A program made the translations under genes and the position numbers. Under the pieces are notes generated by a model, which was given only the letters and a program-made list of their open reading frames with translations, had not been told where the DNA came from and did not search any database. Below are positions 5,683-25,197 of a stretch of DNA of 32,634 nt, in pieces; the stretch's first letter is position 1, and each line of letters opens with the position of its first letter. This stretch comes from Anaerolineae bacterium (GTDB lineage: Bacteria; Chloroflexota; Anaerolineae; Anaerolineales; Villigracilaceae), in the NCBI GenBank assembly GCA_017303655.1, contig JAFLCE010000049.1:1-32634 (forward strand). The letters run 5' to 3'.

Positions 5683-6676
5683 TCCCAACCAACTCCTGCC
5701 AGGTCAACGGACCCACCACGCCGTCGGGCGCCAGTCCGTGCTTACTCTGAAAGTCTTTCACGGCTTCAGTGGTCAGCGGACCAAAGACCCCGTCGATCTC
5801 AAGGGTGTAGCCGAACGAATTATTCAAGATGAATTGCAAACCTCGCACGGCATCGCCCTGACTCCCTTGTTGTACAGTGACGACCAACTGCTCCCATGTT
5901 TCTGGTCCGATCTGGTTCTCTTCATCACTGATATCGTTCTTATTCTGAAAGTTCTTGACCTTCTCGTTGGTTTCTGCTCCATAGATACCGTCCACCACCA
6001 GGTTGGTATAGCCCTGCTGGCGCAAAAGATATTGAGCCACTCGCACCTGTGGGGCGCTATCGCCCTGCTTGAAGACATACCACACCACCACGCCGCCGCG
6101 CTTGGCGACGATCTGCACCCAGAATGGTCCACTGGCAAGCGCAAAGACTTCACCTTTCTCATCTTTGATCTTCCAATTCCCGCGATGCGTCCCTGCCAAC
6201 GCCGGGGCGATCAAGTCTACACTGATCTCCACTCTTTCACCCGGGGCAACGCTCCCCGTCGTCAGCGGCTTTGAGAGCGGTCCGCCCATGCGTTCGCCCG
6301 AATCGAACACCAGCTGATACCCCGACGTCCATGTGCAGGTGCCTTCATTCTTGATCTGCCATACTTTCGTAAACGGTTTTTGCACGATGAAGTTGGTATT
6401 GTCTGGCACGGTTTCGCCAACAAAGCTGGCGCGGTTGCAAGGCGTACCGGTTTGGGTCGGGCTCACGGCGGCAGGGCTGCCCACGCTGGCAGTCTCACCC
6501 GGAGATGTGGCAAACGCTTGCGGCGTTTCCACCACCACGGTCCCTGCCGCGATCTTGGTCTGTGCCGCAAAGGTCGCCAGTTGATTGATGTCAAGCGGTG
6601 TCTCCTTCGCAGGCATGTTGCAAGCCGCAAGGATCAACGCCAATATAATGAATAGGATGGATGAACGCATACGCAT
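5678..6676 (-). CDS. Lipoprotein with an NBR1-Ig-like domain and two peptidoglycan-binding (PG_binding_1) domains
   Basis: 332 residues. The N-terminus MRMRSSILFIILALILAAC is a lipoprotein signal with the lipid-accepting Cys at 19. Residues about 78-190 match the beta-sandwich NBR1-type Ig-like domain: FTKVWQIKNEGTCTWTSGY, then V.PGE..EI.VDL.AP..AGTHRG.WK. Two PG_binding_1 repeats follow, each with the VDGIYG/IDGVFG turn, a VKNFQ/VKDFQ helix and a GP.TW..L end. The protein probably tethers the membrane to peptidoglycan. AGGAG lies 6 nt before the ATG at 6676. Two overlapping Mets occur; the first fits the ribosome site best. Confidence 0.85.
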   Translation of the reverse strand: MRMRSSILFIILALILAACNMPAKETPLDINQLATFAAQTKIAAGTVVVETPQAFATSPGETASVGSPAAVSPTQTGTPCNRASFVGETVPDNTNFIVQKPFTKVWQIKNEGTCTWTSGYQLVFDSGERMGGPLSKPLTTGSVAPGERVEISVDLIAPALAGTHRGNWKIKDEKGEVFALASGPFWVQIVAKRGGVVVWYVFKQGDSAPQVRVAQYLLRQQGYTNLVVDGIYGAETNEKVKNFQNKNDISDEENQIGPETWEQLVVTVQQGSQGDAVRGLQFILNNSFGYTLEIDGVFGPLTTEAVKDFQSKHGLAPDGVVGPLTWQELVGK

Positions 6677-6727
6677 GGGAAACTCCTTTATCGGCTAAAG
6701 TGTACTGCAAGAAGAAGCAATGCGGCT

Positions 6728-7297
6728 CTACTTGTCTTCGGGCTGGTTCGCGTACTCATCCACTACCACGCCCAAGCCGTCTGCCACCCGGTTGACGTAG
6801 GCATAATAGGCTGTGGTTTGGTTAATGTCTAAGATCGCACGGTCATCCCATCCGGCTTCGCGCAGGGGCGCAAGGTCCGCTTCGGTCATATCCCAGGGTG
6901 TGCGGGTGAGCTTGTCGGCATAATCGAGCATCGCACGTTGACGCGGCTTCAATTCAGCCATGCGGTAATCTGTTTTCAGGGCTTGCACCAATTCGGGCTT
7001 CTTCGTAAATCGCAGCAGACCGCGCGAATGATGCACAATTCAATAATGACATTTGTTGATGGCACTGACCACCACCGCGATCATCTCCCGCTCCGAGCGG
7101 CTCAGCGGACTCTTGGCATGCATCACCGTATGATACAAGTCGGCGTGTGCTCGCAGAGTAGGTGGGTTGAGCGAATGCACAGCCAGAATGTTATCAACAC
7201 CCTGCTTTTCAGCATCCCACTCTTGCTGATAGTATTCTGCCAGTTCGCCCTCGGCTTCTGTTTCAGGAACTACATGAATCCATGCACGTTTTTCCAT
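6728..7297 (-). CDS. Candidate selenoprotein: AhpD/CMD-family peroxidase-related enzyme with a CxxU motif
   Basis: The frame is open from ATG 7297 to the stop at 6728 except for one TGA at 7040-7042. Read through, it gives 189 residues, the usual size of the uncharacterized peroxidase-related (AhpD-like) family. The TGA is codon 86, in Asn-Lys-Cys83-His-Tyr-[TGA]-Ile-Val-His-His-Ser. Family members have CxxC followed by a valine-histidine segment there, so the TGA replaces exactly the second redox Cys. The upstream half (LSRSEREMIAVVVSAINKCHY) and the downstream half (WDMTEADLAPLREAGWDDRA, then ILDINQTTAYYAYVNRVADGLG) are both intact. A SECIS-like hairpin follows. The enzyme would reduce peroxides through a Cys/Sec pair. 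ATG 7297 has GAGG 5 nt upstream and is preferred over GTG 7303. The alternative is a nonsense mutation or sequencing error. Confidence 0.75.
7010..7027 (-). promoter_or_regulatory. SECIS-like hairpin downstream of the in-frame TGA
   Basis: In mRNA sense, counting the U of UGA as 1, bases 16-21 pair with 27-33 (U-A, C-G, G-C, C-G, G-U, one bulged C, then C-G) and close a GGUCU loop at 22-26. E. coli fdhF carries GGUCU at the same 22-26 position, where G23 and U24 are the SelB contacts. The bulged U17 of fdhF is not conserved: position 17 is C, with U at 15 and 16. Confidence 0.65.
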
Positions 7298-7317
7298 CTG
7301 CACCTCACTGAAAGAAA

Positions 7318-7347
7318 ACAGCCTTCAGAGTATTTCCCGAAGGCTGT
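7318..7347 (-). terminator. Intrinsic terminator of the mrp end of the nuo unit
   Basis: 9-bp perfect arms (ACAGCCTTC and complement) with a 12-nt loop. On the minus strand the stem is followed by TTTTCTTTC, as expected downstream of the gene ending at 7402. It overlaps the leader of the candidate selenoprotein gene, so read-through would feed that gene. Confidence 0.7.
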
Positions 7348-7360
7348 CCTTATTTGGTTG

Positions 7361-7403
7361 GCTACTTAACTACAAAACTATCCAACTACTAAACTACCCA
7401 ACT
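7361..7403. repeat. Low-complexity CTACTAAACTACCCAA-type tract at a stop codon
   Basis: A quasi-periodic sequence of AACTAC/AACTATCC units reaches the stop codon of mrp at 7402-7404. On the coding strand it is a succession of TAGTT units, similar in style to 3819-3865. Confidence 0.55.
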
Positions 7404-8475
7404 ACTCAACAATATTGATCGGCAGAGAATTATTCGCGCCCAGCGCCGCCACCGAGACCTTTTGCGCGATCTTCATGGCAATGTCTGTAAAGGCTTTCGC
7501 TACTGGCGAGTCAGGGTAGGAATCGACGATCGGCTTGCCCGTGTCACCGCCGATGCGCACGTTCTGGTCAATCGGCACGCCGCCGAGGAAGGTCGTGTCG
7601 GTCGCTTGTGCCAGTTTTTCGCCGCCACCCGAACCGAACAAGTCCATTCGCGAGCCGTCTGGCATTTCGAGATATGACATATTCTCAACCACGCCCAAGA
7701 TCGGCACTTCCAGCGTCTTGAACATGTTAAGTCCACGGCTGGCATCTTCCAGCGAGACCAACTGTGGCAGGGTCACGATCACCGCTCCACTTAAGGGAAG
7801 AGCCTGCGCCAGTGAGAGTGCGGCATCACCGGTTCCGGGGGGCAGGTCTACGATCAGATAATCCAACTCGCCCCATTCCACGTCACCGAGGAATTGACGA
7901 ATGGCAGAGTTGAGCATCGGTCCACGCCAGATCAGCGGCTGACCCGGTTTTACGAGCAGACCCATCGAAACCATCTTCAGTCCATACGCTTCGGCAGGGA
8001 TGATGCGCGGTCCGTTCGGGGGCGGCAGTTTCTCCACGCCCAGCATGGTGGGGGTGTTGGGTCCGTAAATATCCGCATCCATCAAGCCGACGCGCGCGCC
8101 CGTCTTTGCCAGCGCCACCGCCACATTGACCGACACAGTCGATTTGCCTACGCCGCCTTTGCCCGAGCCGATGGCGATTGCATTGCGAATGGGGGTGTTG
8201 ACCAGTCCGCGCATGCGCCCGTCGTTGGGCACATCCGAGTCCATTTTGATGTCAACCGATTTGACGCCGTCCACGGTCTTGAGCGCATTGCGGCAGTCGG
8301 CTTCGATCTTGCCTTTCAAAGGGCAAGCCGGTGTGGTGAGCATCACTGAAAACGAGACCTTGTCACCGTCCACTTCTAAATTGCGGATCATGTTCAGGGT
8401 CACAAGATCTTGCCCGAGGTCCGGTTCTTGAACCGTACCGAGCGCTTGTAGTACTGCTTCTTTAGTTGGGGTCAT
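7402..8475 (-). CDS. mrp: Mrp/ApbC/Ind1-family P-loop Fe-S cluster carrier ATPase
   Basis: 357 residues from ATG 8475, with AAGGAA upstream; an earlier in-frame start is rejected for lack of a site. Residues 1-75 form a MIP18/DUF59 domain with TPACPL (Cys51). Residues 103-112 are the deviant Walker A GSGKGGVGKS, followed by GLMDADIYGPN and DLPPGTGDA. These proteins bind and deliver 4Fe-4S clusters; the mitochondrial homologue Ind1/NUBPL serves complex I. The gene follows nuoI here, supporting a role in maturing this complex. The usual C-terminal CPxC is absent: the segment reads ENMSYLEMPDGSRMDLFG, as in some actinobacterial and other homologues, so cluster ligands must differ. Confidence 0.9.
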   Translation of the reverse strand: MTPTKEAVLQALGTVQEPDLGQDLVTLNMIRNLEVDGDKVSFSVMLTTPACPLKGKIEADCRNALKTVDGVKSVDIKMDSDVPNDGRMRGLVNTPIRNAIAIGSGKGGVGKSTVSVNVAVALAKTGARVGLMDADIYGPNTPTMLGVEKLPPPNGPRIIPAEAYGLKMVSMGLLVKPGQPLIWRGPMLNSAIRQFLGDVEWGELDYLIVDLPPGTGDAALSLAQALPLSGAVIVTLPQLVSLEDASRGLNMFKTLEVPILGVVENMSYLEMPDGSRMDLFGSGGGEKLAQATDTTFLGGVPIDQNVRIGGDTGKPIVDSYPDSPVAKAFTDIAMKIAQKVSVAALGANNSLPINIVE

Positions 8476-10955: not shown

Positions 10956-11596
10956 GCGACACCTTCCTTCTTTGCGGCGGCGGCTTTGAATTCTTCACTG
11001 CGGCGCACGTCGATCAGATCCGGTCCGAGGATGGGCATCGGCACGTAGTTCGAATCCACTTTGCCTTTTTCGTACCAACGGACTTTCTTGATGGATTGCT
11101 TGTCGATCTTCTCTTGCAGTTTGATCATGCCTGCGATCAATGCCTGCGGGGTGGGGGGGCAGCCGGGGATGTAGACGTCGACGGGCAGGAACTTATCGAT
11201 ACCAGCCACGACGTTATAGCCTTCCTTGAAAGGTCCACCGCTGGAGGCGCAAGCGCCCATTGCCACGACATATTTCGGCTCAGGCATCTGGTTGTACAAG
11301 CGGATGATGGATGGCAGCATTTTCTTCGTCACAGTGCCCGAGACCAGCATCATATCTGCCTGACGCGGGGTGGGGCGCATGACTTCCATACCAAAGCGCG
11401 CCATATCGTAACGTGCAGTTTGTGCTGCGTTCATTTCGATCGCGCAGCATGCCAGACCGAACATCAAGGGCCACACCGACCAGCGGCGTCCCCAATTGTA
11501 GAGGCGGTCGATCGTAGTGATCGAGATCGAGTTCTGAATATCCTCCGGAATGTTGTAGTTCGGCAGGTTCAAGCCTTCGTATTTATTTTCTTCCAT
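10952..11596 (-). CDS. nuoB: NADH-quinone oxidoreductase subunit B (NuoB)
   Basis: 214 residues from ATG 11596, preferred because GAGGAG precedes it inside the 3' end of iscX; a longer in-frame start is less likely. Fe-S cluster N2 ligands are visible in [17 protein letters not shown] and [10 protein letters not shown], alongside ARYDMARFG. NuoB carries the terminal cluster that reduces quinone. Its first 14 nt overlap iscX, so the two are coupled. No nuoA, E-H or J-N is in the window, so the remaining subunits must lie elsewhere or the complex is a variant. Confidence 0.95.
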
Positions 11597-11795
11597 GGAT
11601 GTGCTCCTCGTACCAGTCTTGGTATATCGCGTATAGGATGTCATCGTTCACGAGCGCGGGATCATCCTCAAATTCCGAAAGTTCAAGCGTCCAATCAAAT
11701 ATCTGTTGCAGGGTCACTTCTTCGATGTTCACATCGTTATGTCTGCGGCGCAATTCCATCGCGATGGCGAATGTGGCGTCCCAGTGCAAGCTCAT
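11583..11795 (-). CDS. iscX: IscX-like iron-sulfur assembly protein
   Basis: A 70-residue acidic protein that follows the IscX pattern throughout: MSLHWD...[13 protein letters not shown], then a Trp in [21 protein letters not shown], and a C-terminal IYQDWYEE. IscX is an adaptor that binds IscS and iron and tunes Fe-S cluster synthesis; it is normally in isc operons. Here it overlaps nuoB by 14 nt and overlaps the preceding membrane-protein gene by 4 nt, so it is in the nuo unit. Confidence 0.85.
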
Positions 11796-12121
11796 TGTTC
11801 AAGCTGTTGTTCGCGAAAATAAAGAAAGAGCGGCAATGCAAATGAAAGCCCGACCATTAAAGTCGCTAGCGGATACGCCCACCAATACTTCATCCTCAAT
11901 CTCTTGGCTTCGTTATAAAAGAAAGTCCACGCGGCGAAAACGGAGATCGTCAAATCTACGGCGAGCAATGCGCCCCAGTCCAGGGCGGTCAACTGCGCCA
12001 GGGCGGCGGTCGTGCTCATTTCATTGGCTGTATAAAATTTGAAGATGAAATAATAAGGAAGGACAAATCCAATTACAGTGAGGATTAGGTAAATGTTCTT
12101 TTTCACAGTGGTGTTTTTCAT
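11792..12121 (-). CDS. DUF2834-family small membrane protein
   Basis: 109 residues from ATG 12121 (an upstream in-frame start lies inside the promoter). Three hydrophobic segments are visible: IYLILTVIGFVLPYYFIF, then LLAVDLTISVFAAWTFF, then a final one ending GLSFALPLFLYFRE. The LPYYF and GLSFALPLFLYFRE signatures are those of DUF2834. It occupies the position nuoA often holds but lacks NuoA signatures. A textbook promoter lies 13 nt upstream and there is no Shine-Dalgarno sequence. It starts the transcription unit through iscX and nuo. Confidence 0.75.
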   Translation of the reverse strand: MKNTTVKKNIYLILTVIGFVLPYYFIFKFYTANEMSTTAALAQLTALDWGALLAVDLTISVFAAWTFFYNEAKRLRMKYWWAYPLATLMVGLSFALPLFLYFREQQLEQ

Positions 12122-18330: not shown

Positions 18331-19917
18331 TTAACAGTCGAAGCAGGCGGTTGGCGTGGGTGATGGTGTAGGTGTCCGCGTTCGAGTCGGCGTCGGTGTG
18401 ATCACCGTGGGCGTCCGTGTCGGCGTGTTCGTCGGTGTGAAGGTCGGTGTCCTCGTCGGTGTTCTCGTCGGCGTATTGGTAACCGTTGGCGTATTGGTAC
18501 GCGTTGGTGTACGAGATGGGGTCGGGGTACGAGACGGAGTAGGAGTGCGCGACGGGGTCAGGGTAATGGTCGGTGTATTGGTGATCGTCGGTGTTCTTGT
18601 AATGGTCGGCGTGCGAGTCGGTGTATTGGTATTTGTCGGTGTAGCTGTGTAATTGTTGATGCTGCCAGTGATGGTACAAGTACCCCAATTGGGGAAGTCA
18701 AAGGTTAGGCTAACGTTCCACAACCCGCCCCAGGTGGTGTTATTTGTATCTGCATCCCAGGTTGCTTGCGTGCCGCTGCCATTGATCGGTAGGGTGCCGG
18801 AAGCCGCTGAGGTGTTCTGTGGCGAGGCAGTAATGCCAGCACCGCTTGTACCTGCCGGGTTGTAATAAGTTGTGCCATTGAACCCTACATAATCGAAGTA
18901 CTTGCCACCAGTGAGTGGTGAGGGGTTCCAAGTGAGCGTGGAACTAATTAGGTAGGCAGTCACAAAATTATTGTTACGAACGCGGGCTTCGAAACTATCG
19001 CCATTGAAGCGGGTACGGTCAATAAAAATATTGCTGCAAGAAGGTGCGGGTGTATTGGTAACGGTAGGTGTGCGGGTAGGTGTACGCGTAATGGTGGGTG
19101 TCAGCGTAAGCGTAGGCGTGCGGGTCGGTGTCCGTGTGGGTGTCCGTGTCGGTGTATTGGTGATTGTTGGGGTAAGGGTAGCTGTGGGTGTATCCGTAGG
19201 GATGGGTGTATTGGTTGGCACGGTTGGGATGTTCAACGGCAGCGGGGTGTTGATGGCGCGAGTCGCACGGAATTGTTCCACAATGCCTTCGCGGTACGAA
19301 GCCAGGTGGATCATGCTGGGTTGAATGCCGAAAATAGGCAAGACCATAAAGCGGAAGTTGTAATCCGCGGCAACGACCACGCGGTTGCCAGGCGTGCCTG
19401 CATGTTCACTGCGGGTTCCATTCGGCAGGGTGCAGTTGGCATACACGGGGCGCGCCATCAGCGGCGGAACGAAAACACGTCCATCTTCTGCAGAACAGAC
19501 TGTAATGTTGAAATACTCATCATCTGTATTGCTGGCAGAAGCACCGAGGGTGACGTCTCTCAAGATAAAACCAACGATAATGCGACGGGTTTCATCGCGG
19601 ATCGAGAACACGCGCGTAGCAGTGTCTTCTTCATCTTCGGTCGAGCATAGGGTGCCATCACCATCAAGATCATAGGTAGCGACATTGTACACGCCGCCAC
19701 CATTACAGTAGGTCTGCTCGTACTGACCAGTGGTGGCATAGCGGATGCCGAAGCGAGTGGAATTTTCGATGATGATCCACGCGAACATCAGGCGTGAAAA
19801 CTCGATCACGCCTACCAGCACAAGCATCAGTAAAGGAATGATGAGGGCAAATTCAACCATTGCCTGTGCTTTTGGTTTTCTTTTTATTTCCTTATCTTTT
19901 GTATGAATCATGCCCAT
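18331..19917 (-). CDS. TadE-like protein with two Thr-Pro-rich stalks and a terminal Cys-bounded domain
   Basis: 528 residues from ATG 19917, chosen because AAGGAA stands 6-7 nt upstream. The N-terminus [21 protein letters not shown] then [11 protein letters not shown] is a TadE/pseudopilin-type hydrophobic segment. A pilin-like region follows to about residue 230, then a Thr-Pro-Arg stalk ([11 protein letters not shown]), a globular domain of about 130 residues starting [11 protein letters not shown] and closing with GTCTITG, and a second longer Thr-Pro stalk ending PTACFDC. It is a likely surface or pilus-associated protein. The antisense Gly-Val ORFs are shadows. Confidence 0.8.
18341..18652. 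repeat. Degenerate tandem repeat encoding a Thr-Pro stalk (C-terminal)
   Basis: GTCGGTGT-type units (plus strand) recur in triplet phase, giving Thr-Pro-Thr-Arg/Asn codons on the minus strand. Such tracts are prone to length change. Confidence 0.75.
19046..19246. repeat. Degenerate tandem repeat encoding a Thr-Pro stalk (central)
   Basis: The same unit type as the C-terminal tract, encoding the first stalk of the TadE-like protein between the pilin-like region and its globular domain. Confidence 0.7.
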
Positions 19918-19947
19918 GGTCATTTCCTTCTGAAAATAATTGACAAC

Positions 19948-21417
19948 TTATCTTGAAATTCTGGTAAAGATATTTCTGGCAATCGCATCGAAAATTGCAG
20001 CCAAACCCGAAGAATTTGGTGAGAAAAAGTATTCACCATGATTGGCAGAAACCCCACCAGCAGTTTCTGCGGCATACTCAAGGAGTTGTTCGCCTGCAGT
20101 GGCATCACCTTTGGAAGCATTACGAATTAGATTTCCTAAACCAATAGTAAAGACAGTCACACCTTGTCCGGTAACAGGGTCTGCCAGATAATCTGCCATA
20201 TCTCTGGCATAATCATCAGCATCGTAATTAGCATCGCCGTTTGAATGACGGGAAACCGCAGACGCGTCACGGCAAAAAGGGTTGGTCAGTGAGTTCCAGG
20301 TACTAGTTGGGCAGAAACCGTCCAAGTAGCCTGGGAAACTGTCAGTGGCGTTGGCAGGACCACCAGCTAATGCCAGCACGATCCACAAAGAGTCTTCGCG
20401 CACCAGCCCATTGGTAAATTCCAATGCCGCTCTACGGAATGCCCCACCGATGTTACTGGAGTTGCAGGAGGAAATATTATTAACCTCGTCACCAGTGTTT
20501 GCTAGAAGGTCAACCCCAAGACGATAAATTGGGCAATCTAACCCAATGAACGTACCACTAGTATAATTAATGCAAGGTCCGTTGGCTGGGTTGGCTGGCG
20601 ATCCCCAGTCGCAGGCAGGCGGTTGATAAACGCGTAAATTTCCTAAGGCTGTTCGCACAGCCGACTCATTATCATCCAGCCCAATCACGGTGACGTGGTC
20701 GCGGTTGGGGGCATTGGGAGATTGATTGGTCATGGCTACGATAGAAACTCTATCATACGGGAAGAACATATTATCCAAAAATTCATCAGCGACGTTTTTT
20801 ACAGTGTCTAATGGCTCACATGGGTTGGATATGGATGCATTACATGCTGATGGGTCTTCACTAGGATGATCAGGTATGTTGCCATTTCCGCCAGCATACG
20901 TTTCATATGCCATGGAAGCGGAAGTATCAATGATTAAGACCATATCGATGGAAGCGGCTTCACCGACCGCAGAAGTCGTCAGGTTTGCTGAAGTGAAACC
21001 CAATACACGCATGAAGCCGAATTGAACCGTGCGAGTCGCTTCCACACGTACGAGCTTTCTGCGTGGGAGGGTACAAAGGGTTTCATCATGCAAGGTTCCG
21101 TCTGTAGAGGTATCGAGAGTACCCGTATCAGGGTCTCTTTTGCAGCGATATACATTAATATTTGCAGCGTCAGACTGATTGAGATTTAAGAACGTTTCAG
21201 CAGCTGTTGAAAGGTCTGCACCTGTAAAACCACGGCGAAATTGCTGAGAAGCAGAAATCGAAGCGGCATCTACGGCGCGCTTTAATTTACCGTATTCGAT
21301 CAACATCATGCCGCCATCGGTCATCAAACCGACCATGGCGATTAAACCAACCATTGCCACCGCAATGAGGACGATGGCTTGACCGCGTTCCGATTTTCTT
21401 GGATTTGTTTTCAACAT
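19948..21417 (-). CDS. TadG-like protein with von Willebrand factor A domain
   Basis: 489 residues. N-terminal SERGQAIVLIAVAMVGLIAMVG then MTDGG is a TadG-type membrane segment. Asp164-Thr-Ser166-Ala-Ser168 (LIIDTSASM) is a MIDAS motif beginning a vWA domain, with DTVKNVADEFLDNM and RVSIVAMTN following. The insert region is rich in Cys pairs (for example SACNASISNPCEP), suggesting disulfides outside the cell. The vWA fold may bind divalent cations and partner proteins. GGTGAG lies upstream of the ATG. Confidence 0.85.
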   Translation of the reverse strand: MLKTNPRKSERGQAIVLIAVAMVGLIAMVGLMTDGGMMLIEYGKLKRAVDAASISASQQFRRGFTGADLSTAAETFLNLNQSDAANINVYRCKRDPDTGTLDTSTDGTLHDETLCTLPRRKLVRVEATRTVQFGFMRVLGFTSANLTTSAVGEAASIDMVLIIDTSASMAYETYAGGNGNIPDHPSEDPSACNASISNPCEPLDTVKNVADEFLDNMFFPYDRVSIVAMTNQSPNAPNRDHVTVIGLDDNESAVRTALGNLRVYQPPACDWGSPANPANGPCINYTSGTFIGLDCPIYRLGVDLLANTGDEVNNISSCNSSNIGGAFRRAALEFTNGLVREDSLWIVLALAGGPANATDSFPGYLDGFCPTSTWNSLTNPFCRDASAVSRHSNGDANYDADDYARDMADYLADPVTGQGVTVFTIGLGNLIRNASKGDATAGEQLLEYAAETAGGVSANHGEYFFSPNSSGLAAIFDAIARNIFTRISR

Positions 21418-21428
21418 AAATTTCTCAC

Positions 21429-22067
21429 CTAATCTGGTTCGGCAGCAGCGAGCGGCATAATGGTGTAGGCTCGCATAATAAAGGGGTCTGGCACAAAAAG
21501 AAGTAGCCAGGGTAATCTCAATACTTGATGGTAATGATAATGGACTTCCACCAATAAAATACCTGCATTCGGTGCCCCACTCACCAAAAGCGATTCGATG
21601 GCTGCATCTGAAAATGCGGGCGATTCGTTGTTGTATAAATGATAAGAACCAGAAGATGGAAAGCGTTCTACATTCCCACTTGATGCCCCGAAGGCAGTGA
21701 TGATCACATCATCATTAGAGGGGTCAAGGGGAATCCGCCGTCCCTGATAAGAGGGGTTGATCACTTGCGGGTCAAGGCTGGCTCGCACCATGGCAGCTGT
21801 ATCTGCATAAAAAGTCATATCATCAGCAGTGCCATACACGTCTACGAATGGATTTTCGTTGCTATAAAAACGGGCGGCTTCACGGGTGGCATCGATCAAT
21901 GAAAGATAATAATTCAGAGCAAAGCCAAATTCCACCACGCCGCCTAGTAACATGAGCAGGATGGGTAGTGTAATAGCAAACTCAACCAAGCTTTGAGCTT
22001 TAGATTTCTGCAGCCGGGTTGTCTTTTTATTGATTCGGGAAAATACTTTATTAAGTATTTTTTTCAT
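21429..22067 (-). CDS. TadE-like pseudopilin
   Basis: 212 residues. N-terminus KAQSLVEFAITLPILLMLLG then GVVEFGFALNYYLSL is the TadE hydrophobic segment, with acidic residue Glu after the SLV as in type IVb pilins. The rest is soluble with aromatic beta segments. It is 11 bp upstream of the vWA TadG-like gene, so they share a transcript. It probably localises with or is processed by the prepilin peptidase encoded at 25220-26008. Confidence 0.8.
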   Translation of the reverse strand: MKKILNKVFSRINKKTTRLQKSKAQSLVEFAITLPILLMLLGGVVEFGFALNYYLSLIDATREAARFYSNENPFVDVYGTADDMTFYADTAAMVRASLDPQVINPSYQGRRIPLDPSNDDVIITAFGASSGNVERFPSSGSYHLYNNESPAFSDAAIESLLVSGAPNAGILLVEVHYHYHQVLRLPWLLLFVPDPFIMRAYTIMPLAAAEPD

Positions 22068-22190
22068 TATCGTCTCTTATTTCTGTTTACAAACACACTG
22101 AATCCAACCATGGTTTACGAGCGATCATTTGATTTTGAAGACGAGGGGGATGTTGTTCGCGGATCGCCTACTGCATTAAAACTTATTCCT

Positions 22191-22196
22191 ATTATA
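22191..22196 (-). promoter_or_regulatory. Possible -10 box for the second half of the pilus region
   Basis: TATAAT in the 237-bp gap between two TadE/TadG gene groups. TTACTT lies 17 nt upstream. It would give an mRNA leader of about 120 nt for the gene starting at 22067. A short hairpin (CTTACA/TGTAAG, 22240-22255) is the only other structure seen in this gap. Confidence 0.35.
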
Positions 22197-22304
22197 AACT
22201 ACTTCTAATCTTGAAGTAATATGCAAGTAAATTGCAACGCTTACATTTCTGTAAGAACTTCTCGTGTCTTGGTTTTGAACACCATTGTCAGACATGCTGA
22301 GCGG

Positions 22305-23582
22305 TCATTTTATCAGAACCACCTCTGGCATGGTTAGGGTGTCCCAATTTTGCTCATCGGTATATTTGATTTCGATATTGTCCGTGCTGTTCACTTCGAG
22401 GTTATAGCCGATGATCTGGCTGTGGTAGGCACCTCCACGTAGAGAATCCAAGCCATTGATGCGAACGTCTGCACCAGGGGCAAGGATCGTTCCGATAAAG
22501 CTCGATTCGTCACTTCCGTTTAGGTTGATCAGCCCATGGTTGCCGATCGGCATGTAGATCAGCAACCCGGCATTCGGTCCGCCTTGAGGCGCACGTAGGT
22601 TGACTTCCGCATTGCCGCTGATCTTGATATCCCCGTCTTCCATGACGATGACGACATTTCCGCCTTCTAATACCTGTCCTTCACTCAAAATAAAGTCATC
22701 TTGTAGGCAATAGACACCACCTTCTAGTGAAGTCACGCCCTCGGGCGGAAAGGTACCTTCATCCCAATTACCAGATGATATGGAACCCAAACCGTCTGGT
22801 GTGGCGATCTTTGATCCGCAACCGGCTCTTGGCATGCGATACGGCGGCGGATAGGGGATCGGAGCGATGCCTGTGTTGATCGGGTATGGGGTAATGAGTT
22901 TTGGTTTTTGAATATCAGCGCCTCCCACTACCATGATCTGGCTGGCATCTTGTATCCTGACGCTGCCACTGCCGAAAGAAATAAAGGCGCAGGTTGGGTT
23001 ATTCGAATTGACGAACAGCCCGCCGCCGATAAGGTTGATCGTGGCTTCGCTATGAATCCAAAACGCTTGCTGCATGTCACACTTGCTTTTGGGAGCGAGA
23101 CTGACTAGCGCATAGCCATTGAACATTTCACCAAGCTCTGAAGGTTTTGATTGCGAGATCACGTGGGCTACAGTGGTAATTGTGGGAATGCCCACTACTA
23201 CAGCAAAATAGGTTTGAACGTGCGACGTGATGATCACTTCAATATATTCTGAATTGCCAGCGTAAGGTCCGCCCACTGGAGGGGTGTTCATTTCAACAGT
23301 GTTCGTAACCCCATTATTATCATATCCATTGGCAAAGGCGGTAGCCAGGGCAGCCGCACGCCAATCTCCGCCTTCGATGCGGGTGAGGGCGGCTGTGAGA
23401 GCAGCGGCTGATGCCGCTGTATCTGCGCGGCGGCTATCAATGAAAGCATTGACGCCATCCACCGCGAGGGCAGAAACGCCAATTAATCCGATAATTGTAA
23501 AGACGATCAGGATGATGGCTTGCCCGCGTTCACTGGGCAAATGCTTTTTACTTCTAAGGAAAGGGTTATTATTTATTCGCAT
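22305..23582 (-). CDS. TadG-like protein with bactofilin-like C-terminal repeats
   Basis: 425 residues. SERGQAIILIVFTIIGLIGV then SALAVDGVNAF is a TadG-type membrane helix. The C-terminal half (from about residue 290) contains successive short turns such as GDIKISGNAEVNLRAP, then GTILAPGADVRINGLDSLRG, resembling a right-handed beta solenoid as in polymer-forming bactofilin-like domains. The start overlaps the upstream gene by 10 bp. No clear ribosome site is visible, so translation may be coupled. Confidence 0.75.
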   Translation of the reverse strand: MRINNNPFLRSKKHLPSERGQAIILIVFTIIGLIGVSALAVDGVNAFIDSRRADTAASAAALTAALTRIEGGDWRAAALATAFANGYDNNGVTNTVEMNTPPVGGPYAGNSEYIEVIITSHVQTYFAVVVGIPTITTVAHVISQSKPSELGEMFNGYALVSLAPKSKCDMQQAFWIHSEATINLIGGGLFVNSNNPTCAFISFGSGSVRIQDASQIMVVGGADIQKPKLITPYPINTGIAPIPYPPPYRMPRAGCGSKIATPDGLGSISSGNWDEGTFPPEGVTSLEGGVYCLQDDFILSEGQVLEGGNVVIVMEDGDIKISGNAEVNLRAPQGGPNAGLLIYMPIGNHGLINLNGSDESSFIGTILAPGADVRINGLDSLRGGAYHSQIIGYNLEVNSTDNIEIKYTDEQNWDTLTMPEVVLIK

Positions 23583-24052
23583 GGTGGTTGAAGGATAACG
23601 TTTGAAGCATACCCATTTAATGGGATAGTCTCGGTACCAATGACTTCACCGGTAAAAGGCATGATGATCGGATACTGATACGAAACGGTGACCTGGATGT
23701 TATTTGCAACGCCTCTGGTTACGCCCTGGCATGCTCTGCCATTCACTTTTATGGCTACGCTGACAGTTTCCTCATTTCGCAGATCGATCGGTGAGGAGAA
23801 TACTTCTTCATCTTCTCGTGGCAGAATGTTTCGGGCACGGTTTTCGATCTCGGCTTTATTGCCTGGGTTGAAAGACGCATACAAGGCACCTTCTTGGGCG
23901 GCATCCCGCAGAATAGAGTAAGAGAAGAGCGCCATGCCAAAATCGAAGGTTCCCAACAAGATGAGCAGGATCACCGGCAAACTGATCGCAAGCTCGACCA
24001 AGCTTTGTCCTTTTTCAGGTGAAGGAGAAGTTTTCTTCAAACGTAACGACAT
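23573..24052 (-). CDS. TadE-like pseudopilin (short)
   Basis: 159 residues. KGQSLVELAISLPVILLILLG then TFDFGMALFSY forms the TadE hydrophobic segment. A soluble domain of about 110 residues follows, containing two cysteines (NGRACQGV; PPCE at the end) that may pair. The stop overlaps the downstream TadG-like start by 10 bp; the gap to the upstream gene is 2 nt. Confidence 0.8.
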   Translation of the reverse strand: MSLRLKKTSPSPEKGQSLVELAISLPVILLILLGTFDFGMALFSYSILRDAAQEGALYASFNPGNKAEIENRARNILPREDEEVFSSPIDLRNEETVSVAIKVNGRACQGVTRGVANNIQVTVSYQYPIIMPFTGEVIGTETIPLNGYASNVILQPPCE

Positions 24053-24054
24053 GG

Positions 24055-25197
24055 TTATTTACTTGAGTCTACTGGGTAGTTCAAGCACCCTGGGGTTCCA
24101 ATTGTGATGATGATGCGTTCGGTTCCATCTTTAAAACCATAATCTTGGTCAAACTCGAATTCTATGTATGATTGACCGGACGGAAGGGAGGGAAAATATC
24201 CCGGAATAAAACCAGAGGGTGTGAAGAGTTCACCGACCCATGTTTGCCCGGCAAGTTGGGCTTTATTTAACCTCAAGGATGGGTTGCCGCCTGTATCGTG
24301 ATTCCATTCTAGGTAAACGGATGCAACGCGCAGATTGTAGCCCGTGTTATTGAAGATCCACATCCGCATGATGTTGTCATCAAATTCTAAAGGTCCATGT
24401 GAAACACCAAATTCACCCGTACACATGATGGCGGTCGCCGTGCTGGAGGGGATCGCTGTCGGTGGGAGTGTGGCAGATGGAGTAAAGGTCAATGTTGGTG
24501 GAAGCGTATTGGTTGGAGTACGTGGATTTGCCGTGCGATAGGCTTCGTAGGTTGCATTAAACGTAGGCGGAATCGTCGGTGGTGTTGTCGCAGTTTCATT
24601 CCCTGAAGGGGTTCTAGATGGAACTCTAGATGGAGTACTGCTTTCTGCAGCAAAACCAGTCGGGAATGCCGAACCGAAGATCGGAACGGAGATCAAGAAC
24701 GTTCTCGCGTTGGCAGAGACTATTTCCAATGGATCGATGGGGATGATTGGTAGGATCGGTTCATAGGATGCGGAGACTTGCACAATGATGCGATCTCCAT
24801 TTCGAATGATGTTGTCGTCGACTGGGCAAGTATCTGAGTCAGGGTCAGAGTCGATATCAAGGATTGGAACCTGTTCACCATCTTCCGTTAATCCGCGGTC
24901 GTAGGTGATATTAATATCGTCAAACTCGGTTAAGAGTGCAGATCGATTTGCGGTGGCACGGATTCCATCGCAATCCTGATAGTAGGTGACGCCATCCAGT
25001 TCACCACTCCCGGCACCATAACGTGCTGCTTGTCTTGAAGCATTTGCAACAGATGCAAAGATGAAGATCAGGCGTGAAAGTTCGACGATGCCATACAAAA
25101 GTACGATCAACACCGGTAGGGCAAGCGCAAATTCCATCATGGCTTGCGCACGCTGGTTTTTCTTTCTGCGGGAAAATGGAATGTGTTTTATTTGCAT
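24055..25197 (-). CDS. TadE-like protein with a Thr-Pro stalk and terminal Cys-bounded domain
   Basis: 380 residues. N-terminus RAQAMMEFALALPVLIVLLYG then IVELSRLIFIF is the TadE segment. A Ser/Thr/Pro stalk spans about residues 190-260, then a domain of about 115 residues begins MCTGEFGVSHGP and ends IGTPGCLNY. Its layout (Cys, beta strands with LRVASVYLEWN, closing Cys) parallels that of the 528-residue TadE-like protein at 18331-19917. It is the first of the gene group after the prepilin peptidase, 22 nt downstream of it. Confidence 0.8.
   Translation of the reverse strand: MQIKHIPFSRRKKNQRAQAMMEFALALPVLIVLLYGIVELSRLIFIFASVANASRQAARYGAGSGELDGVTYYQDCDGIRATANRSALLTEFDDINITYDRGLTEDGEQVPILDIDSDPDSDTCPVDDNIIRNGDRIIVQVSASYEPILPIIPIDPLEIVSANARTFLISVPIFGSAFPTGFAAESSTPSRVPSRTPSGNETATTPPTIPPTFNATYEAYRTANPRTPTNTLPPTLTFTPSATLPPTAIPSSTATAIMCTGEFGVSHGPLEFDDNIMRMWIFNNTGYNLRVASVYLEWNHDTGGNPSLRLNKAQLAGQTWVGELFTPSGFIPGYFPSLPSGQSYIEFEFDQDYGFKDGTERIIITIGTPGCLNYPVDSSK

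Follow-up and report, generated by a model that had tools for sequence, protein, structure and literature searches.

The window (the whole stretch of 32,634 nucleotides that was analysed) very probably carries an intact gene for an AhpD-like selenoprotein of the TIGR01926 family, in which a hairpin would guide the decoding of UGA by SelB and the product would have an AhpD-type selenol/thiol centre. The reading of the codon itself, TGA 7042..7040 as selenocysteine (Sec), is strongly supported. The gene occupies 6728..7297 on the minus strand and runs from ATG 7297 to TAG 6728, with the start codon at 7297..7295, the TGA at 7042..7040 and the stop codon at 6730..6728. This frame of 190 codons corresponds to 189 residues, and the in-frame TGA is its sole interruption. 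The original prediction had described a single frame broken only by a TGA at 7040-7042, and its coordinates proved to be exact; the strand, which had been left unstated, is the minus strand, and a plus-strand reading of 6728..7297 makes no sense. By eye, a GAGG stretch resembling a ribosome-binding site lies immediately upstream of ATG 7297.

The TGA (7040..7042, minus strand) stands at the second position of a C-H-Y-U (CxxU) active-site motif. Its Sec would be residue 86 counted from ATG 7297, or residue 88 counted from GTG 7303. The codon for the first active-site cysteine, Cys83, is found at 7049..7051 on the minus strand; this cysteine is invariant in a 20-row alignment and is present in 66 of 67 homologue rows, the exception (L101) being itself a row with cysteine at the codon-86 column.

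When the read-through product was compared with TIGR01926 ('peroxidase-related enzyme'), it scored 163.3 bits against a curated cut-off of 81.8. The match was full length, covering profile positions 1-176 of 178, and the product also matched the Pfam CMD domain with 51.1 bits. A standard-code ORF listing gives two abutting fragments in place of the full gene: an N-terminal fragment of 87 codons from GTG 7303 to the TGA, and a C-terminal fragment of 102 codons from GTG 7036 to the TAG. Because standard-code ORF finding splits the gene in this way, 6728..7297 should be annotated as a single gene, and it merits annotation as one full-length selenoprotein.

A relative, locus L021 in genome G115 of the same genus, is 82% identical and keeps the TGA. 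Compared with L021, dN/dS was 0.063 before the TGA and 0.079 after it; these ratios are rough, as dS was 1.6-1.9 and near saturation. Judged from this comparison, both gene halves are under purifying selection and decay of either half is excluded. The original observation of one frame, with both halves intact and the family length kept, is confirmed.

The pattern of codons among homologues shows that the interruption is more than a chance event. We extracted 67 distinct homologues, the window gene included, and at the codon-86 column found TGA in 49, TGC in 13 and TGT in 5. Each of the 49 TGA homologues has exactly one TGA in its matched region, always at the codon-86 column, and within the matched regions of all 67 homologues no TGA was found away from that column. 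The 49 TGA and 18 cysteine codons share one column of the alignment, which agrees with the proposal that the TGA stands where CxxC has its second cysteine. The closest relatives, whose codon had been named as a check, have TGA and neither TGC nor TGT. The extracted loci gave 72 profile matches, of which 67 were distinct; five repeat loci (L020, L049, L050, L053 and L055) had been set aside before extraction. As the loci were best-scoring matches or hand picks, the 49 of 67 should not be taken as an unbiased frequency.

When 152 genomes of the family were searched with the protein, 23 had matches, and among the 29 matches listed, 20 had exactly one TGA and 9 had none. Among 400 genomes of the phylum searched with a profile, 122 had matches (E up to 1e-15). 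The best 17 of these phylum matches had one TGA each, and among the 150 matches listed, one TGA was counted by hand in 102 and none in 48; the position of the TGA was verified for the 67 extracted rows. A single-protein contig scan gave one result, a distant locus (L052, Thiotrichaceae, 30% identity) that lies below the inclusion threshold for the 67 rows and has a cysteine codon and no TGA at the codon-86 place.

These data bear on the possibility that the gene is a pseudogene, or that a cysteine or tryptophan codon appears as TGA through an error of sequencing or assembly. A recent nonsense mutation or such an error would also look like a single-codon interruption of an otherwise intact frame, and cysteine codons do stand at this place in 18 of the 67 homologues. 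However, the TGA recurs at the same codon in 48 further homologues, all from other assemblies and with no second TGA in the match, and constraint after the TGA equals constraint before it. As the TGA is shared with L021, this possibility is refuted in practice and we consider it extremely improbable.

The original prediction had called for a search for the Sec machinery, and all four components were found in the same assembly, each over its cut-off: selA (540.9 bits), selB (343.1 bits), selD (360.9 bits) and tRNA-Sec (selC; 68.5 bits against a gathering score of 47), the last with the anticodon tca according to ARAGORN. The assembly, of which the window is contig C117, has 4,605,709 bases in 172 contigs and is 93.55% complete; its contamination of 5.82% is a point against our explanation. 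Of the 152 genomes of the family, 141 had a selB match (E up to 1e-60; 139 over the cut-off), and Sec machinery is thus usual in the group. The selD gene (L018, G000:C129:40505-41434) has an in-frame TGA too, by eye near the N-terminus and in a GUASK-like motif, and SelD of this genome looks like a selenoprotein as well.

A dedicated Sec system in the genome also argues against the reading of the TGA as some other residue, either because the code is altered throughout the genome or by ordinary stop-codon readthrough. An open frame with TGA as a sense codon would fit any residue. However, TGA terminates 7 of 31 long ORFs of the window (ORFs picked by hand from the listing), and the TGA-interrupted homologues have TGA only at the column of the catalytic cysteine. 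We give this reading very little credence, and we favour the insertion of Sec.

Downstream of the TGA we found a SECIS-like hairpin, UCGCG-CGGUCUGC-UGCGA, at 7010..7027 on the minus strand. It has a 5-bp stem and an 8-nt loop, spans nucleotides +16 to +33 (numbered from the U in the UGA), and is identical in L021. By itself, the hairpin of the window gene does not exceed synonymous chance (p 0.198 and 0.240). Four stretches starting at or just before the TGA showed no excess folding stability (z 0.09 to 1.16), and a search of 6300-7800 with Rfam gave three matches only, all far under their gathering scores.

Across the homologues the result was clearer. For the 49 TGA genes the mean hairpin score was 7.32, compared with 3.42 in synonymous shuffles; the highest mean of any shuffle set was 4.51, and 0 of 200 sets reached the observed value. 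For the 18 cysteine genes the mean was 2.42 compared with 1.99 when shuffled, and 40 of 200 sets scored as high. The shuffles ignore kinship among the rows, and 0 of 200 is thus no strict probability. Our hairpin rule is our own (a stem of at least 4 bp, a loop of 3-9 nt, a G among the first two loop bases, and a range of distances) and was modelled on features of bacterial SECIS elements. By this rule one TGA homologue among the 49, L092, has no hairpin, and the cysteine homologues with a hairpin include L029, L030, L047, L074, L075 and L081. The putative SECIS signal is convincing only across the family, being clear over the set of TGA homologues with its related rows.

The codons shared by the window gene and L021 were also compared. 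Among conserved codons, 9 of 9 are identical from +3 to +11, compared with 63 of 129 at positions other than +1 to +14. Identity extends longest over 18 consecutive codons ending at +14, a length rarely matched in shuffles (p 0.00018); as this run starts before the TGA, it is no SECIS signal by itself.

The same genome has a second TIGR01926 paralogue (L044, G000:C13:43753-44304; 125.9 bits, over the cut-off), which is 41% identical and has a TGA at the active site as well. Its hairpin is longer, with a 7-bp stem, and its distance (+28) is not that of the window gene. Contig C141 has a third and distant match (20.6 bits, under the cut-off), with TGC at the column. Two shorter CMD-type homologues, L032 and L033 (genomes G027 and G022; about 125 matched residues), carry their TGA in this same column, followed at +21 by a GCAGUUGC-like hairpin, and are perhaps another AhpD-type selenoprotein subfamily.

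How Sec and cysteine forms are related was addressed with a tree of the 58 rows, out of 67, that reach at least 140 aa. The tree contains long branches and leaves 9 forks open. It requires at least 7 Sec/Cys changes, 3 of them forced by well-supported branches, compared with a shuffled mean of 15.0. The window gene groups with L021 at 100/100, and each of the five nearest rows has Sec. These results would fit a picture in which the TIGR01926-type proteins of the phylum are mainly selenoproteins, with Sec the usual and perhaps the older state, repeated changes between Sec and cysteine, and a SECIS distance that varies by subclade. The 48 of 150 listed phylum matches without a TGA weaken the reading of these proteins as mainly Sec, and for this picture as a whole we see the case as evenly balanced. 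If it is true, TIGR01926-type proteins offer a natural series for the loss and regain of Sec and for shifts of the SECIS element. In any case, the homologue set provides a useful series of Sec and Cys forms, with a SECIS signal to match.

We propose the following model for the gene and its product. SelB and Sec-tRNA would decode the UGA at 7042..7040, and the hairpin about 16 to 33 nt downstream would guide this decoding. Sec86 would replace the second cysteine of CxxC and, together with Cys83, Glu71, Tyr85 and His90, may form an AhpD-type selenol/thiol centre. This centre may reduce hydroperoxides, or it may hand on reducing power as a disulfide reductase. An AhpD-type peroxide or disulfide reductase is the likely role of the protein, predicted from its family.

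The arrangement of residues is consistent with such a centre. In the 20-row alignment E71, C83, position 86 and H90 are invariant, and Y85 is nearly so. The spacing of E71-C83-Y85-U86-H90 equals that of the AhpD proton relay, which PMC3141380 describes as Glu118-Cys130-His132-Cys133-His137 in Mycobacterium tuberculosis AhpD and as Glu36-Cys48-Tyr50-Cys51-His55 in Pseudomonas aeruginosa PA0269. A structural model predicted with cysteine written for Sec and an alignment of 10 (pLDDT 77.8, pTM 0.73) came nearest to 6k40, 3c1l, 2pfx, 2oyo and 2prr (TM 0.73-0.77), and these same entries were the best sequence matches of known structure.

The genomic neighbourhood raised another possibility for the function. 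In the window, as judged by eye, the gene has a gene for a Mrp-type ATPase on one side and a gene for a peptidoglycan-binding protein on the other. In genome G115 the orthologue (L083) has 8-oxoguanine deaminase (675.6 bits) on one side and adenine deaminase (498.4 bits) on the other, both over their cut-offs, with the selenium-linked hydrolase YgeY (486.6 bits, over the cut-off) nearby; a carbamoyltransferase-like protein in the cluster scored under every cut-off. The purine-breakdown cluster with YgeY spans 7390-14299 of L083 and 7904-16802 of L105. The protein might thus be a selenoprotein with a different CMD-fold redox function, perhaps linked to purine breakdown and without peroxide reduction, as its orthologue sits inside such a cluster near YgeY, and the CMD superfamily also contains a debrominase (6ohi) and sestrin. 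Against this, the genome of the window has the same purine cluster on contig C94 without the selenoprotein gene, which is located elsewhere. The main stretches of the C94 and G115 clusters are 81 to 96% identical (six genes compared), and the spot of the selenoprotein gene is taken in C94 by a different ORF of 526 aa that resembles a membrane protein. By eye, no purine cluster was seen beside the relatives' genes L084, L085 and L087. We considered a conserved operon and rejected it, as in the window's genome the gene lies without the purine-cluster neighbours that it has in L083. As the location of the gene differs between the two close lineages, purine breakdown is no more than a lead, and we regard a function of this kind as possible though rather unlikely. 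The AhpD-type reductase is the role that we prefer.

The rest of the window was scanned for other hidden Sec genes. A one-TGA read-through scan outside the listed genes gave 7 frames, this gene included; five of the remaining six had no Pfam match, and one matched PF04384 wholly after its TGA. This short ORF, at 11583-11885 on the minus strand (PF04384, Fe-S assembly, 44.1 bits), has its TGA before the likely start and is an ordinary small gene, too short for the ORF list with its 80-aa limit. A series of ORFs at 18331-25197, again on the minus strand, resembles by eye Tad-type pilus or secretion proteins and has threonine- and proline-rich repeat stretches.

AhpD-like CxxU selenoproteins were already known, as the original prediction had stated. 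They are reported from marine metagenomes, with 27 sequences in one account (PMC1088965, 2005) and, in another (PMC2398784, 2008), 299 sequences of AhpD-like 1 (COG2128) and 70 of AhpD-like 2 (pfam02627); they also appear in PMC9312934 (2022). AhpD-like selenoproteins are also listed in PMC1794560 (2006). Among known prokaryotic selenoproteins, the relevant entries of a 2026 review (PMC13188914) give an 'AhpD-like protein, TIGR01926, CxxU', with MCB9421940.1 as the example, and further AhpD/CMD CxxU families. Literature titles on Anaerolineae selenoproteins and Chloroflexota selenocysteine included none on this protein, a weak negative that covers titles only. It is well supported that the window protein is a new instance within an already listed selenoprotein family, and the finding leaves knowledge of the TIGR01926 family and of Sec decoding unchanged.

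Compared with known systems, the protein shares its relay spacing (Glu, Cys, His/Tyr, Cys, His) with M. tuberculosis AhpD and P. aeruginosa PA0269, which, as described, have cysteine and not Sec; M. tuberculosis AhpD also has a different chain topology according to the same account (PMC3141380). In two alignments, 6k40 (Deinococcus radiodurans AhpD) and 3c1l (Mlr4105) likewise have cysteine where the window protein has Sec. The alkylhydroperoxidase-related (seleno)protein CFYUT, NF041238, is a related CxxU AhpD-type selenoprotein; membership of the window protein in that family was rejected, as it scored 57.6 bits, far under the cut-off of 175. The marine-metagenome CxxU proteins are, by their description, alike in AhpD/CMD fold family and motif and come from another source. 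The TIGR01926 entry MCB9421940.1 (PMC13188914), again as described there, belongs to the same family model and has Sec second in CxxU.
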